Positions 28,584-35,773 of a DNA stretch of 64,000 nucleotides are shown one piece after another. The position numbers and the translations under genes were made by a program. The DNA comes from Actinomycetota bacterium (GTDB lineage Bacteria > Actinomycetota > CADDZG01 > JAHWKV01), in assembly GCA_019347715.1 (NCBI GenBank), contig JAHWKU010000003.1:62001-126000 (forward strand). Direction: 5' to 3'. The notes beneath the pieces were generated by a model, which saw only the letters and a program-made list of their open reading frames with translations, was not told where the DNA came from and did not search any database. Position 1 is the stretch's first letter; each line of letters starts with the position of its first letter.

Positions 28584-29633
28584 CTAGGGCTTCAGCATCA
28601 CCTTCGTGGCCTGCTTGGTGTCGAACAGCTCGTAGCCCTTAGGCCCCTCCTCGAGAGAAAGGGTATGGCTGATGATGATGGTTGGGTCGACTCTTCCTGC
28701 CCTGACCTCATCTAGAGCTTTCTCCCAGTAGCGCGGGACCGGCGTGACTCCGGAGAAGCTGATCTGGATGTTTTTCCGCCACGCCTCTCCGAGTGGAAAC
28801 GGATACTCCAGCTCGACATACACGCCAACGACTACAAGGTGTCCTCCAGAGCGGAGCATCTCGTATGCGTTTCGAAACGCTTTCTCGTGGCCAACGCAGT
28901 CGATGGCAATATCCGCTCCGCGTCCATCGGTCATCTCAGCGAGCATCGTCACCGGGTTTCTCTTCCCGATGTCGACTGGTGTCGCGCCGATCTTCTCCGC
29001 AAGGAGAAGCCGCTCTTCCACAGAATCGAGGGCGATCAACTGACCGGGCTCGTGAAGTTTGGCGTACTGAAGAGTGAAGAGGCCGACGGGTCCACAGCCA
29101 ATCACCGCAACCGTGTCGCCCTTGGAGATATTCGCCAGCTCTGCGGCGTAGTAACCGGTGGTGAGAATGTCTCCTGCGAATACTGCCTGCTCATCGCTTA
29201 GGTCGTCTTCGATCGCTAGAAGCGTCAGGTCTGCGTTTGGCATCCTGACTTTTTCAGCCTGCGCGCCCTGCAGGTCTCCCGAGAAGATCCCGTAGCCAAG
29301 GGCTCTGAAGTTGCCGTTGTCGCAGTTCTGATATTCCTGTCTCGTACACCACCAGCATTCGCCACAAGGTACGAGGAAAGATCCGATCACACGGTCGCCC
29401 GGTTTGATCTTGGTTACCGCCGTTCCAACCTCTTCGACAATCCCTACCAGCTCATGGCCGATGACGGTGCCTTCGGTCAGTCCCGGGACTCTGCCGTGGT
29501 AGAGATGAAGGTCTGACCCGCAGATGGGGGCCGTCGTCACCCTAACGATGGCGTCTTTCTCATCTTCGATGGTGGGTTCGGAGACGTCTTCGACGGCGAC
29601 CTTGCCCGACTCTTTGAAGACCAGACCCCTCAT
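28584..29633 (-). CDS. Zinc-dependent alcohol dehydrogenase family protein
   Basis: A 349-residue medium-chain dehydrogenase. The catalytic zinc site is in TTAPICGSDLHLYHG and GHELVGIVEEVG. The structural zinc cysteines lie in PCGECWWCTRQEYQNC, and the NAD(P) Rossmann motif is AVIGCGPVGLFTLQYAKL. It resembles glutathione-independent formaldehyde or threonine-type dehydrogenases, but the substrate is not fixed. Its ATG overlaps the stop of the upstream selenoprotein disulfide oxidoreductase (shared ATGA), so both are translated from one message. That suggests a link to aldehyde or thiol redox stress. Confidence 0.9.
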   Translation of the reverse strand: MRGLVFKESGKVAVEDVSEPTIEDEKDAIVRVTTAPICGSDLHLYHGRVPGLTEGTVIGHELVGIVEEVGTAVTKIKPGDRVIGSFLVPCGECWWCTRQEYQNCDNGNFRALGYGIFSGDLQGAQAEKVRMPNADLTLLAIEDDLSDEQAVFAGDILTTGYYAAELANISKGDTVAVIGCGPVGLFTLQYAKLHEPGQLIALDSVEERLLLAEKIGATPVDIGKRNPVTMLAEMTDGRGADIAIDCVGHEKAFRNAYEMLRSGGHLVVVGVYVELEYPFPLGEAWRKNIQISFSGVTPVPRYWEKALDEVRAGRVDPTIIISHTLSLEEGPKGYELFDTKQATKVMLKP

Positions 29634-30322
29634 TGACCGCCTTCACCGGCCGAGGCTTCCAGCACTGCTTCGACGAACTGGGGCTCGGGAAGGCCCCCGG
29701 TAAATGAGTAGGTATCGTTCACAACGATCTTCGGCACCGAATAGACCTCGTACTGGCCGGACAGCTCCGGGAACTCTTGGGCCTCAATAGAAGTAGAGCG
29801 GATTCTTGGGCTCACCATTGCCATTCGATTCGCCGTCACGACGGCGCGAGGGCAGTGCGGTCAGGTGGGTGTCGAGAAGACCATGATGTCGAGGTCTTCT
29901 TCGAGTGATCCGATCTTCTCGAGCGTTTCAGTCGAAAGGCCGTGGCCGTTGCTGTGGGAGACCGAGATCATCGTCTCCAGGAACGAAAGGAACTCGTAGC
30001 CTGCAGGCAGTCCGAGGAAACGGACGCCGTTGTCTTCACTTCCATCCGTTATCGCGATCGTTGGAGTAAAGCTGACTCCCCATTCGGAGGCGGTGGCGGG
30101 ATCTGCCTTGACGTTTACGACTTCGACTTCGAGGTTGTCGGAAAGCTCGGCAACCTCGTTCATCAGCTGCTCGGTCTCTTTGCACGAAATGCATTGGCGC
30201 ATGCCCGGGACGTAAAGCCCGCTGGACTCCTCTGAGAACACCGTCACCTTGACCGGCGCCTGCAGGTCGTCGCTCAGGCGGAGCTTGAGCGCTTCCCGGT
30301 CTTCATCTCTTAGAAAGGCCAT
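29630..30322 (-). CDS. Predicted selenoprotein: two-domain protein disulfide oxidoreductase
   Basis: Read through an in-frame TGA (29863-29861), this is a 230-residue protein with two thioredoxin folds, like archaeal-type PDO. Domain 1 carries C44-I-S-C47. Domain 2 reads MVFSTPT-U154-P-H-C157-P, so the TGA replaces the first cysteine of a standard CPHC active site. Homology continues after the TGA: VVTANRMAM and VYSVPKIVVNDTYSFTGGLPE, with the cis-proline loop SVPK. A SECIS-like hairpin follows the TGA. The final stop is also TGA and overlaps the alcohol dehydrogenase ATG. A conventional call would give a 154-residue fragment plus a 69-residue orphan. Start: ATG 30322; GTG 30325 is the alternative. 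Confidence 0.88.
29831..29863 (-). promoter_or_regulatory. Sec codon and putative bacterial SECIS (disulfide oxidoreductase)
   Basis: The UGA is at 29863-29861. On the minus strand CGCCGT (29846-29841) pairs perfectly with ACGGCG (29836-29831) around the loop CGTG. The stem begins 15 nt and the loop 21 nt after the UGA. The loop has G-U at positions 2-3, as SelB-binding hairpins of bacteria usually do. Confidence 0.75.
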
Positions 30323-30362
30323 CACCTAAGACTAACCAACGATCCTTAGAAGAGATTCCCGC

Positions 30363-30846: not shown

Positions 30847-32013
30847 ATGAGCGAAAAGTTGAGCGGGCGCGATCTGCTGAAGAAGGCCAAGGATTCCGCG
30901 GCCCTGCTCGGTCCGGAGGAAGTTCACGAGATGTTGTCTCGCGGCGAGCAAGCCGTACTCGTCGACGTCAGGGAAGCCGACGAGTGGAGAGCGGGCCACC
31001 TTCCGGGAGCGGTCCACATTCCTCGTGGGTTCCTCGAGATGCAAGTCGACGACAATCTTCCGGACAAGGATGCTCCTCTGATCGTTTACTGCGCCGGGGG
31101 CAACCGCTCCCCATTGGCCGCGGTGACTCTGGGGCAGCTCGGATACAGCAACGTGAAGGTCATGGCGCGCGGATACAGCGGCTGGCGAGGCCTCGGCTTC
31201 GAAGTCCTGAAACCGACGCAATGGACGGACTCGCAAAGGGACAGGTACTCGCGCCATTTCGTTCTCCCCGAAGTAGGCGAAGAAGGCCAGACAAAGATCT
31301 CCTCTTCGAAGATGCTGGTGGTCGGCGCCGGGGGTCTGGGGTCTCCAGTTCTCTACTACCTAGCGGCTGCCGGAGTCGGAAAGCTTGGAATTGTGGACTT
31401 CGACTCAGTCGAGGAGAACAACCTTCAGCGCCAGATCATCCATTCGACGTCGCGCATAGGTGAGAACAAGGCGGCCAGTGCAGGCCAGACCATCGCGGAT
31501 TTGAACCCGGACGTTGACGTCGACATCATCGGCGAGCGGCTAACACCTGAGAATGTCGATGAGATCGTCTCGCACTACGACCTGGTCATTGATGCCACGG
31601 ACAACTTCGACACTCGTTACCTTCTGAACGAGGCGGCAGTGAAGTTTGGAAGGCCATACGTTTACGGATCGATCTTTCGTTTCGAGGGTTACGCGAGCGT
31701 GTTTTGGCCCGAGAGAGGCGGTCCTTGCTACCGCTGTATGCACCCTGAGCCCCCTCCTGCATCCTTGGCCCCCACCTGAAGCGAGGCCGGCGTCCTGGGC
31801 GTGCTCCCGGGAGTGATAGGAACGATCCAGGCCAATGAGGCCCTGAAGATCGCCGTCGGATATGGCGAACCGCTGGTTGGGCGCTATCTGACCTTCGACG
31901 CGCAGTCCACGACTTTCGGCGAACTGAAGCTCCGGAGGGACCCGAACTGCCCAACTTGCGGAGACAGCGTTTCTCAGTCGATCAAGGACAGGGCTGCCGC
32001 CGAGGCCCGCTGA
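30847..32013 (+). CDS. Predicted selenoprotein: rhodanese-ThiF/MoeB fusion
   Basis: Read through TGA at 31777-31779, this encodes 388 residues. An N-terminal rhodanese domain has active-site Cys82 in VYCAGGNRSP. An E1-like ThiF/MoeB/HesA domain follows, with the ATP motif VVGAGGLGSPVLYYLAAAGVG and a DATDNFDTRYLLNE stretch. Zinc cysteines are in CYRC and CPTC. After the TGA comes SEAGVLGVLPGVIGTIQANE, the usual MoeB sequence, so U311 takes the place of the conserved catalytic cysteine. Fusions such as MoeZ and MOCS3 have rhodanese at the C-terminus; here the order is reversed. It probably activates or sulfurates a ubiquitin-like sulfur carrier. A TACACT box eight bases before ATG suggests a near-leaderless transcript. 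Confidence 0.88.
31777..31812 (+). promoter_or_regulatory. Sec codon and putative bacterial SECIS (rhodanese-ThiF)
   Basis: After the UGA at 31777-31779, TCCTGGG (31793-31799) pairs with CCCGGGA (31806-31812): seven pairs with one U-G wobble. The loop is CGTGCT. The stem starts 14 nt and the loop 21 nt after the UGA. The loop opens with C-G-U-G, identical to the loop in the disulfide oxidoreductase gene. Confidence 0.75.
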
Positions 32014-34481: not shown

Positions 34482-34955
34482 ATGTTCGAACTCGGCACGA
34501 TTGTCCCTGAGTTTTCTCTTCCGTCTCACAACGGGTCGGTCGTTGGGCTGGGCGATCTCCTGGAGAATCATTCCCTCGTGGTAATCGCGTTCTATGTTTT
34601 CGACTTTTCGCCCACCTGAAGCAATGAGCTGTCTCAGTTCGAGGCAAAGTACGAGGAGTTCACCGCCATGGGGGCCAAGGTGGCGGGAGTCTCGACTGAT
34701 TCCAGCTGGTCTCACGCGGCTTACCGCCAAAGGTTGAAGCTGCGATTCCCTTTATTGAGCGATTACAACCGGGAGATCGTCGGTGACTACGTCGGCTTTT
34801 ACGAAGACGTGGCAGGCTATAAGGGAGTCAACCGCAGAGGCATAGTGATCGTCGACGGCGAGCGGAGACTCCGATGGAGATGGGTCACAGACAACCCCGG
34901 GGAAATGCCGGATACGGAGATGGTGAGAGAGGCAGTCCAGGAGCTCTGGAAATGA
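34482..34955 (+). CDS. Predicted selenoprotein: 1-Sec peroxiredoxin
   Basis: Read through TGA at 34617-34619, the gene encodes 157 residues of an AhpC/TSA-type peroxiredoxin. The pre-active-site strand LVVIAFYVFDFSPT leads to U46 at the peroxidatic cysteine position (S43-P-T-U46, equivalent to T/S-x-x-C). Downstream SNELSQFEAKYEEFTAMGAKVAGVS and FPLLSDYNREIV are standard Prx sequence. There is no cysteine anywhere in the protein, so the TGA cannot be a dispensable stop in a functional Prx; recycling must come from an external thiol. The stop (TGA) overlaps the next ATG. The ATG at 34482 is chosen because the sequence fits the family from its first residues. Confidence 0.9.
34617..34646 (+). 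promoter_or_regulatory. Sec codon and putative bacterial SECIS (peroxiredoxin)
   Basis: After the UGA at 34617-34619, TGTCTC (34630-34635) pairs with GAGGCA (34641-34646), with one U-G wobble, around the loop AGTTC. The stem starts 11 nt and the loop 17 nt after the UGA. The loop again has G-U at positions 2-3. The 12 bases CCCACCTGAAGC around the codon are identical to those in the rhodanese-ThiF gene. Confidence 0.72.
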
Positions 34956-35773
34956 AATCCCGTTCAGACATCGCCGCTTTCGGGCCGGATTCAATCTCGT
35001 GGCAGCTTTCGTCGGAAATGGTGATGGTTCTTGGCGCAAGACGAGCCCTTTTGCTTCAGCTGGCCCATCCACTCGTAGCTCAAGGGGTAGCCGACCATTC
35101 AAACTTTGAAACCGATCGTCTTGGAAGGCTCTTCCGGACTCTCGAGGCCTCTCTTTCCGTTGTCTTCGGAACCAAGGAAGAGGCCACCGAGGTGATACAG
35201 AGGATCAACGCCGTTCATCGGACCGTGACGGGGCGATTGCAGGAAGATGCCGGAATCTGGGAGGCAGGGACCGAATACCGGGCGGACGACCCCGATCTGC
35301 TTTTGTGGGTCCACGCGACTTTGGTGGATACGGCGGTCACTTTCTACGAGAGGTTCGTTCGCAAACTCGACGAAGGTGAGCTAGAGACTTACTACGATGA
35401 GACCCGCTGGCCGACCGCGGAACTTGGTATCCCGGCCGAGCTGGTTCCAGACACGTATTTCGAGTTCCGCGCCTACTTCGATGAGATGCTCGCGAGCGGA
35501 AAGGTCTTCGTCGGATCGGGTGCACGGGACCTTTCCAGACGGATCATGTATCCGGGTATCGCATTCATCCCCGACCGGTGGTTCGATCCCGCAAACATCA
35601 TCACGATCGGGACATTGCCGGAAGAGATCAGGGCGGGATACGGCTTCAGATGGAATCGAGCGCGCGCCGCCGGCCTCTCGTTAATTACCGCCGCGGTCTC
35701 CCGGTCGCTGCCTCTACTTCCTTCGAGAATCCGGTATCTGCCGCATTCACGAAAACAGAGAGTGTCTCCGTGA
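34952..35773 (+). CDS. MpaB-type oxygenase family protein (DUF2236)
   Basis: A 273-residue protein from ATG 34952 (ATGA overlap with the peroxiredoxin stop). Family features are GARRALLLQLAHPLVAQGVADHS, where the histidines bind haem, then FGTKEEATEVIQRINAVHRTV and LLLWVHATLVDTAVTFYERF. MpaB and latex-clearing protein Lcp are haem proteins that cleave isoprenoid or rubber-like chains. The role of most actinobacterial members is unknown. Coupling to a peroxiredoxin fits a haem or peroxide context, but that is inference. Its stop overlaps the moaE GTG. Confidence 0.85.
   Translation: MKSRSDIAAFGPDSISWQLSSEMVMVLGARRALLLQLAHPLVAQGVADHSNFETDRLGRLFRTLEASLSVVFGTKEEATEVIQRINAVHRTVTGRLQEDAGIWEAGTEYRADDPDLLLWVHATLVDTAVTFYERFVRKLDEGELETYYDETRWPTAELGIPAELVPDTYFEFRAYFDEMLASGKVFVGSGARDLSRRIMYPGIAFIPDRWFDPANIITIGTLPEEIRAGYGFRWNRARAAGLSLITAAVSRSLPLLPSRIRYLPHSRKQRVSP

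Follow-up and report, generated by a model that had tools for sequence, protein, structure and literature searches.

The peroxiredoxin gene and its reading frame

The window, the 64,000-nucleotide stretch of actinomycetotal DNA analysed here, carries a peroxiredoxin (Prx) gene with one in-frame TGA, a hairpin just downstream of that codon and an overlapping oxygenase gene:

34482..34955, + strand: selenocysteine (Sec)-peroxiredoxin gene; ATG at 34482, 157 residues (34482-34952), TGA stop at 34953-34955 after AAA
34617..34619, + strand: UGA, putative Sec at the peroxidatic position, codon 46; homologues have Cys or UGA here
34630..34646, + strand: SECIS-like hairpin, UGUCUC-AGUUC-GAGGCA, its loop beginning 16 nt past the UGA (P 0.018 alone)
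34952..35773, + strand: MpaB/Lcp-type oxygenase gene; start overlaps the Prx stop codon (ATGA)

The Pfam AhpC-TSA domain matches the predicted protein through the UGA, over residues 5-132, with 90.7 bits (cut-off 26), and a whole-genome search recovers the same locus at 1.6e-23 with one TGA inside; the match across the UGA is not due to chance. At the column of codon 46, every row is Cys or UGA both in a 16-homologue and in a 32-homologue alignment, and invariant columns flank it on both sides (G5, P9, F11 and F37 before; L92, D94 and R119 after). A sequence-only reading had placed the TGA at the peroxidatic position of S43-P-T-U46, which is exact: the motif reads F42-S43-P44-T45-U46, and Cys homologues align their Cys there. 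That reading was silent on position 39, where Val replaces the canonical Prx Pro (VFDFSPTU). It had also stated that the 157-residue protein lacks cysteine, and translation bears this out, with zero Cys codons among the 157. If translated, Sec46 is certainly the lone redox residue, from which it follows, as had been argued, that without Sec the product could not be a peroxidase.

Under table 11 the sole ORF of this frame begins at 34668 and encodes 95 aa. A product begun at that ATG would have only part of the fold, missing its N-terminal portion and the active site.

The ATGA overlap makes it probable that the MpaB/Lcp-type gene is translationally coupled to the Prx gene, and an oxygenase-peroxidase link is possible. 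The arrangement was seen in this genome only, and the MpaB/Lcp-type gene is not conserved beside other Sec-Prx genes. We saw no conserved neighbourhood around Sec-Prx genes when the neighbours in other genomes were named by eye: the gene follows a dapA-like gene in family f20 and a phosphorylase-like gene in f29, and precedes the MpaB-like oxygenase gene in the window.

Decoding of UGA46

The window genome encodes tRNA-Sec (84.2 bits), SelA and SelB from adjacent genes (510.7 and 335.8 bits) and SelD (388.5 bits), selD having a UGA of its own. UGA recurs at Prx column 46 in 14 other genomes or loci, and SelD and tRNA-Sec are both found in 13 of the 14 searchable genomes with this Sec-Prx. One genome, G109, has genes for the Sec-Prx and for a Sec-containing protein disulfide oxidoreductase (PDO; L061, L064), yet neither SelB nor SelD scores over cut-off in it, and tRNA-Sec is absent. 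Since SelB, SelD and tRNA-Sec sit together in its sister genome G067, the gap probably reflects one contig missing from the assembly; otherwise the Sec genes of G109 would be relics.

The hairpin provides further evidence. An AGUU-loop hairpin of 6-9 pairs with its loop at +16 nt is present in the window gene and in four relatives of the FYVFDF type (G100, G120, G190, LH_M20). Against 1000 synonymous-codon versions, each of the five gives P 0.007-0.026; the combined P of 4.5e-6 is optimistic, because the +16 position and the loop were picked after the hairpins had first been seen. The stems vary while pairing is kept (UGUCUC/GAGGCA, UCUCCC/GGGGGA, UGACCC/GGGUCG, UGCUCC/GGAGCA), and the window hairpin, at -6.9 kcal/mol, is the weakest of the five. 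No signal came from folding the whole region at the window UGA (z between about -0.4 and -1.1), and the hairpins scored in an initial SECIS scan were unrelated ones; the test was moved to hairpins tied to loop position after these results. A scan over all loop positions is only suggestive, and the +16 AGUU hairpin was not found in the Sec-Prx genes of f20, f29, G024, G305 and G332. A hairpin with a CGUG or AGUUU loop 20-21 nt past the UGA also occurs in PDO genes, where it is less well supported (P 0.016 and 0.003).

The gene thus combines a UGA at the Cys position of its homologues, a genome with SelA, SelB, SelD and tRNA-Sec, and a downstream hairpin, as expected of a selenoprotein gene. Homology, Sec machinery and SECIS-like hairpin all support the earlier contention that the UGA must be read, and UGA46 is almost certainly read as Sec. 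Two other accounts of the TGA can be considered. (i) The gene could be a decayed pseudogene, or translation could begin past the TGA at ATG 34668, the 95-aa ORF being what automated annotation would choose; decay would fit the want of a close orthologue (best 36-38% identity) and of any match to the window Prx at 1e-12 in five family-level relatives. The sequence-only reading had named this as its refuting case, and it finds little footing: the stop is single and falls in the very column where 14 homologues carry UGA and the others Cys, frame and fold are intact on either side, the Sec machinery is complete and the hairpin is conserved. We regard decay or a late start as very improbable. (ii) UGA could specify another amino acid genome-wide under a changed code, which is more improbable still: we found no evidence in its favour, long ORFs in the window end in TGA more often than in any other stop (21 of 40), the Prx ORF itself stops at TGA and the genome has a full Sec system.

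Fold and family membership

Structural modelling, proposed earlier as a check on Sec46, returned a Prx fold with residue 46 in the active-site helix: with 32 loci-derived sequences as input, AlphaFold gave pLDDT 97.2 and pTM 0.92 and placed Sec46 just inside helix 44-55. The best solved match is Bcp4 of Sulfolobus solfataricus (3hjp; Z 25.9, rmsd 1.6 over 156 residues), and AhpE of Mycobacterium tuberculosis (1xxu) also matches well (Z 23.9). Sequence scores are 103 bits for Aeropyrum pernix Bcp, 90 for the S. tokodaii protein, 67 for Bcp4 and 37 for AhpE. The protein has the domain, the fold, the peroxidatic residue near a helix N-terminus and the conserved Arg (Arg119, invariant in 32 aligned homologues) of the Peroxiredoxin (AhpC/TSA) superfamily; it departs from the PxxxT/SxxC(U) motif in having Val for Pro39 while keeping Ser43, and its membership by domain and fold stands. 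Lacking Cys, and belonging to a Sec clade with no conserved second Cys, it is of the 1-Cys (here 1-Sec) type. By sequence and model, the gene product is a predicted 1-Sec peroxiredoxin of the Bcp/PrxQ-AhpE-like group.

Sec-containing Prxs are not a new kind, having been known since 2001, when Soehling et al. reportedly found one, PrxU, in Eubacterium acidaminophilum. The window protein falls outside the NCBI PrxU family, scoring 49.2 bits against NF040737 (cut-off 270). It shares with PrxU and the TxxU families of metagenomes an AhpC/TSA domain and Sec at the peroxidatic position; it departs from the PxxxTxxU motif described for Sec-Prxs (PMC13188914) in having V39 and S43, and it has no Cys at all. 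Its best sequence and fold matches, the archaeal Bcp/PrxQ proteins of the Bcp4/A. pernix type (3hjp, 2cx3, 2ywn), use Cys and keep the Pro, whereas the window Prx uses Sec alone. AhpE, a 1-Cys Prx, resembles it in size, fold and possession of one peroxidatic residue, but is a Cys enzyme reduced by mycoredoxin/mycothiol; the window protein has Sec, and no mycoredoxin-like gene was found in its genome at 1e-8.

A lone redox residue and a lost proline

Cys is wholly absent from nine of the 15 Sec homologues and scattered over various positions in the rest; among Cys homologues, most have a single one. A single redox residue thus appears to be a trait common to the group, and to call it unique among Prxs would overstate the case.

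PxxxTxxC is described as a catalytic motif (PMC5022050), and the Thr/Ser hydroxyl as essential in Cys-Prxs (PMC8533274). The window protein belongs to a clade of 11 Sec proteins (87/84 support), within which its own branch is long (1.17). In all 11 the otherwise near-universal Pro of the PxxxT/SxxC motif is replaced by Val, Thr or Leu, and in four the Thr/Ser has become Gly; the Pro is present in every Cys homologue examined (>70), as well as in four Sec homologues from beyond the clade. The search for Cys46 homologues, likewise suggested earlier, succeeded in part: homologues with Cys at column 46 exist, but none was found in the window's own clade, the nearest Cys relatives lying in other subclades that keep the Pro. 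In a separate, PrxQ-type Sec lineage, Pro is lost in two of seven members (Val in one, Ala in the other), and none of the seven has the resolving Cys that most Cys relatives carry at +5. To this lineage belongs the second Sec-Prx of the window genome (L001/L156; G000:C4:48052-48513), a PrxQ-like protein that has STPGU, carries Val where the catalytic Pro would be and lacks a resolving Cys at +5. Overall, Pro is lost in 13 of 22 Sec proteins vs 0 of ~75 Cys proteins (Fisher 1e-10, inflated by relatedness), so that the loss seems confined to Sec proteins in this sample, and parsimony suggests about three separate losses. These patterns would be explained if Sec relaxes the need for conserved motif residues. 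What looks new here, from the alignments, is that the Pro is gone and that a second redox residue is repeatedly lacking.

Another Prx-like family, with FYRGDW-U-P-Y-C, occurs beside single-Cys Prxs in several f13 genomes (L115-L118, L154, L155); it is the known UxxC Prx-like type.

A neighbouring seleno-PDO

Further selenoprotein genes lie upstream:

29633..30325, - strand: PDO (TIGR02187) and candidate reductant; N-terminal thioredoxin domain with C-I-S-C, C-terminal one with U-P-H-C
29861..29863, - strand: UGA for the putative Sec in U-P-H-C of the PDO; nine further PDOs above the family cut-off share UP[HY]C
30847-32010, + strand: Rhodanese-MoeB/ThiF gene; TGA at codon 311 (31777-31779) at a conserved Cys, APT-U-SEAGVLGVLPG; TGA stop at codon 389

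The U-P-H-C oxidoreductase that had been placed about 4 kb away is real and lies 4.16 kb distant. It scores 234.6 bits against TIGR02187 (cut-off 185) over residues 7-224, has two thioredoxin domains and belongs to the PDO family; its closest solved relatives are the Pyrococcus furiosus PDO and then other thermophile PDOs. With Sec in its C-terminal site it is a member of PDO_seleno_TRX, the UxxC family annotated as 'homolog of AhpF N-terminal domain' and already listed as a selenoprotein, from which it differs in nothing essential. Prx and PDO have a third selenoprotein gene, Rhodanese-MoeB/ThiF, within 5.3 kb of them; MoeB is already known as a Sec family (PMC1088965), and such tight grouping of three genes looks non-random. 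Elsewhere in the genome, a TlpA/ResA-like thioredoxin with W-U-P-H-C (L007; G000:C11:296294-296593) is probably another selenoprotein.

The earlier suggestion that the U-P-H-C protein reduces the Prx has gained strength, as the protein is a PDO, the reductant shown for similar Sulfolobus Bcps: TrxR-PDO reduces Bcp1, Bcp3 and Bcp4 of S. solfataricus, the C-terminal site of PDO being the most important (PMC7465337). The window genome has a TrxR (400 bits). Symbiobacterium is already listed with both Sec-PDO and Sec-Prx kinds (PMC1794560); the pairing of the two is, as a suggestion, the new part of our proposal. Among 396 genomes of the phylum, eight have both PDO and this Sec-Prx, five PDO only and six Sec-Prx only (Fisher 3e-10); the pairing is thus not obligatory. 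Co-occurrence persists among SelB-positive genomes (P 2e-5) and is weaker at the family level (P 0.007, strict), all these values coming from related genomes that are not independent. Of the six genomes in family f1, that of the window has both genes and the other five have neither. Prx and PDO do not share an operon, and in the other genomes their genes are on separate contigs.

The donor could instead be thioredoxin, glutaredoxin/mycoredoxin or a low-molecular-weight thiol. AhpE, structurally close to the window Prx, uses mycothiol/mycoredoxin-1 (Hugo et al. 2014, as cited in PMC10950700), and mycoredoxin-like genes occur in Sec-Prx genomes that lack PDO, such as G100 (74.7 bits) and G190 (85.1 bits). 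In G305 a single frame (L119; G305:C18, 945-1775) encodes a Sec-Prx with a C-terminal glutaredoxin/mycoredoxin-like domain (CPDC), which makes an outside dithiol donor plausible in general, one that need not be PDO. Against such a donor in the window organism, no mycoredoxin-like gene was found in its genome at 1e-8 (the genome is 90% complete), and by sequence its Prx is nearer Bcp4 and A. pernix Bcp (67-103 bits) than AhpE. That some thioredoxin-fold dithiol reduces the window Prx is very likely; that the dithiol is PDO has, in our estimate, an even chance, and a donor other than PDO is a serious possibility to which we give somewhat less credence than that.

Proposed mechanism

We posit that SelB and Sec-tRNA, guided by the hairpin just downstream, read UGA46 as Sec, a step for which the sequence evidence is strong. 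Judging from the fold and the chemistry of the family, the Sec46 selenolate would sit close to the start of the active-site helix, with Ser43 and Arg119 holding it, and would attack the hydroperoxide, giving a selenenic acid. Because the chain has no second redox residue, an outside dithiol must then reduce the oxidized Sec46; the neighbouring seleno-PDO, through its U-P-H-C site, is the best candidate and could in turn be reduced by the NADPH thioredoxin reductase of the genome. Loss of the Pro accompanies Sec in this clade, probably because a selenolate would require less shielding and activation than a thiolate. A 1-Sec Prx with hairpin-guided SelB decoding, a seleno-PDO as best candidate donor and Sec-linked Pro loss is, taken jointly, the explanation that we consider likely.

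The window Prx is likely a peroxidase. The missing motif Pro could mean reduced or altered peroxidase function, and the protein could be a Prx-fold selenoprotein other than a general hydroperoxidase: a sensor, a persulfide-handling enzyme or a selenol thiol-oxidoreductase, with Val in place of Pro39. The loss of Pro39 throughout the clade, the change to Gly in four members of a residue whose hydroxyl is held essential in Cys-Prxs, and a gene context with nothing conserved that points to peroxide stress would accord with such a role. The window protein nevertheless keeps Arg119, Ser43 and the whole fold, and Sec is intrinsically reactive with peroxides; we consider a non-peroxidase role unlikely. 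Returning to the peroxidase, we tentatively propose, while leaning slightly against the full form of the idea, that Sec at the peroxidatic site frees a Prx from the PxxxT/SxxC motif, in this actinobacterial clade and separately in Sec-PrxQs (the Pro, in four cases the Thr/Ser, and the resolving Cys all being dispensed with). The result would be a pared-down peroxidase with one selenium, reduced by a seleno-PDO in a Sec-to-Sec relay.

Implications

A standard-code ORF for such a gene begins past the UGA and loses the active site, a warning for annotation. The Sec clade offers a natural test of conserved Prx active-site residues: if selenium makes the Pro and the Thr dispensable, their role in thiol-dependent Prxs would be the shielding and activation of the thiolate. 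The proposed chain TrxR -> Sec-PDO -> Sec-Prx would constitute a two-selenoprotein electron relay outside thermophilic archaea.
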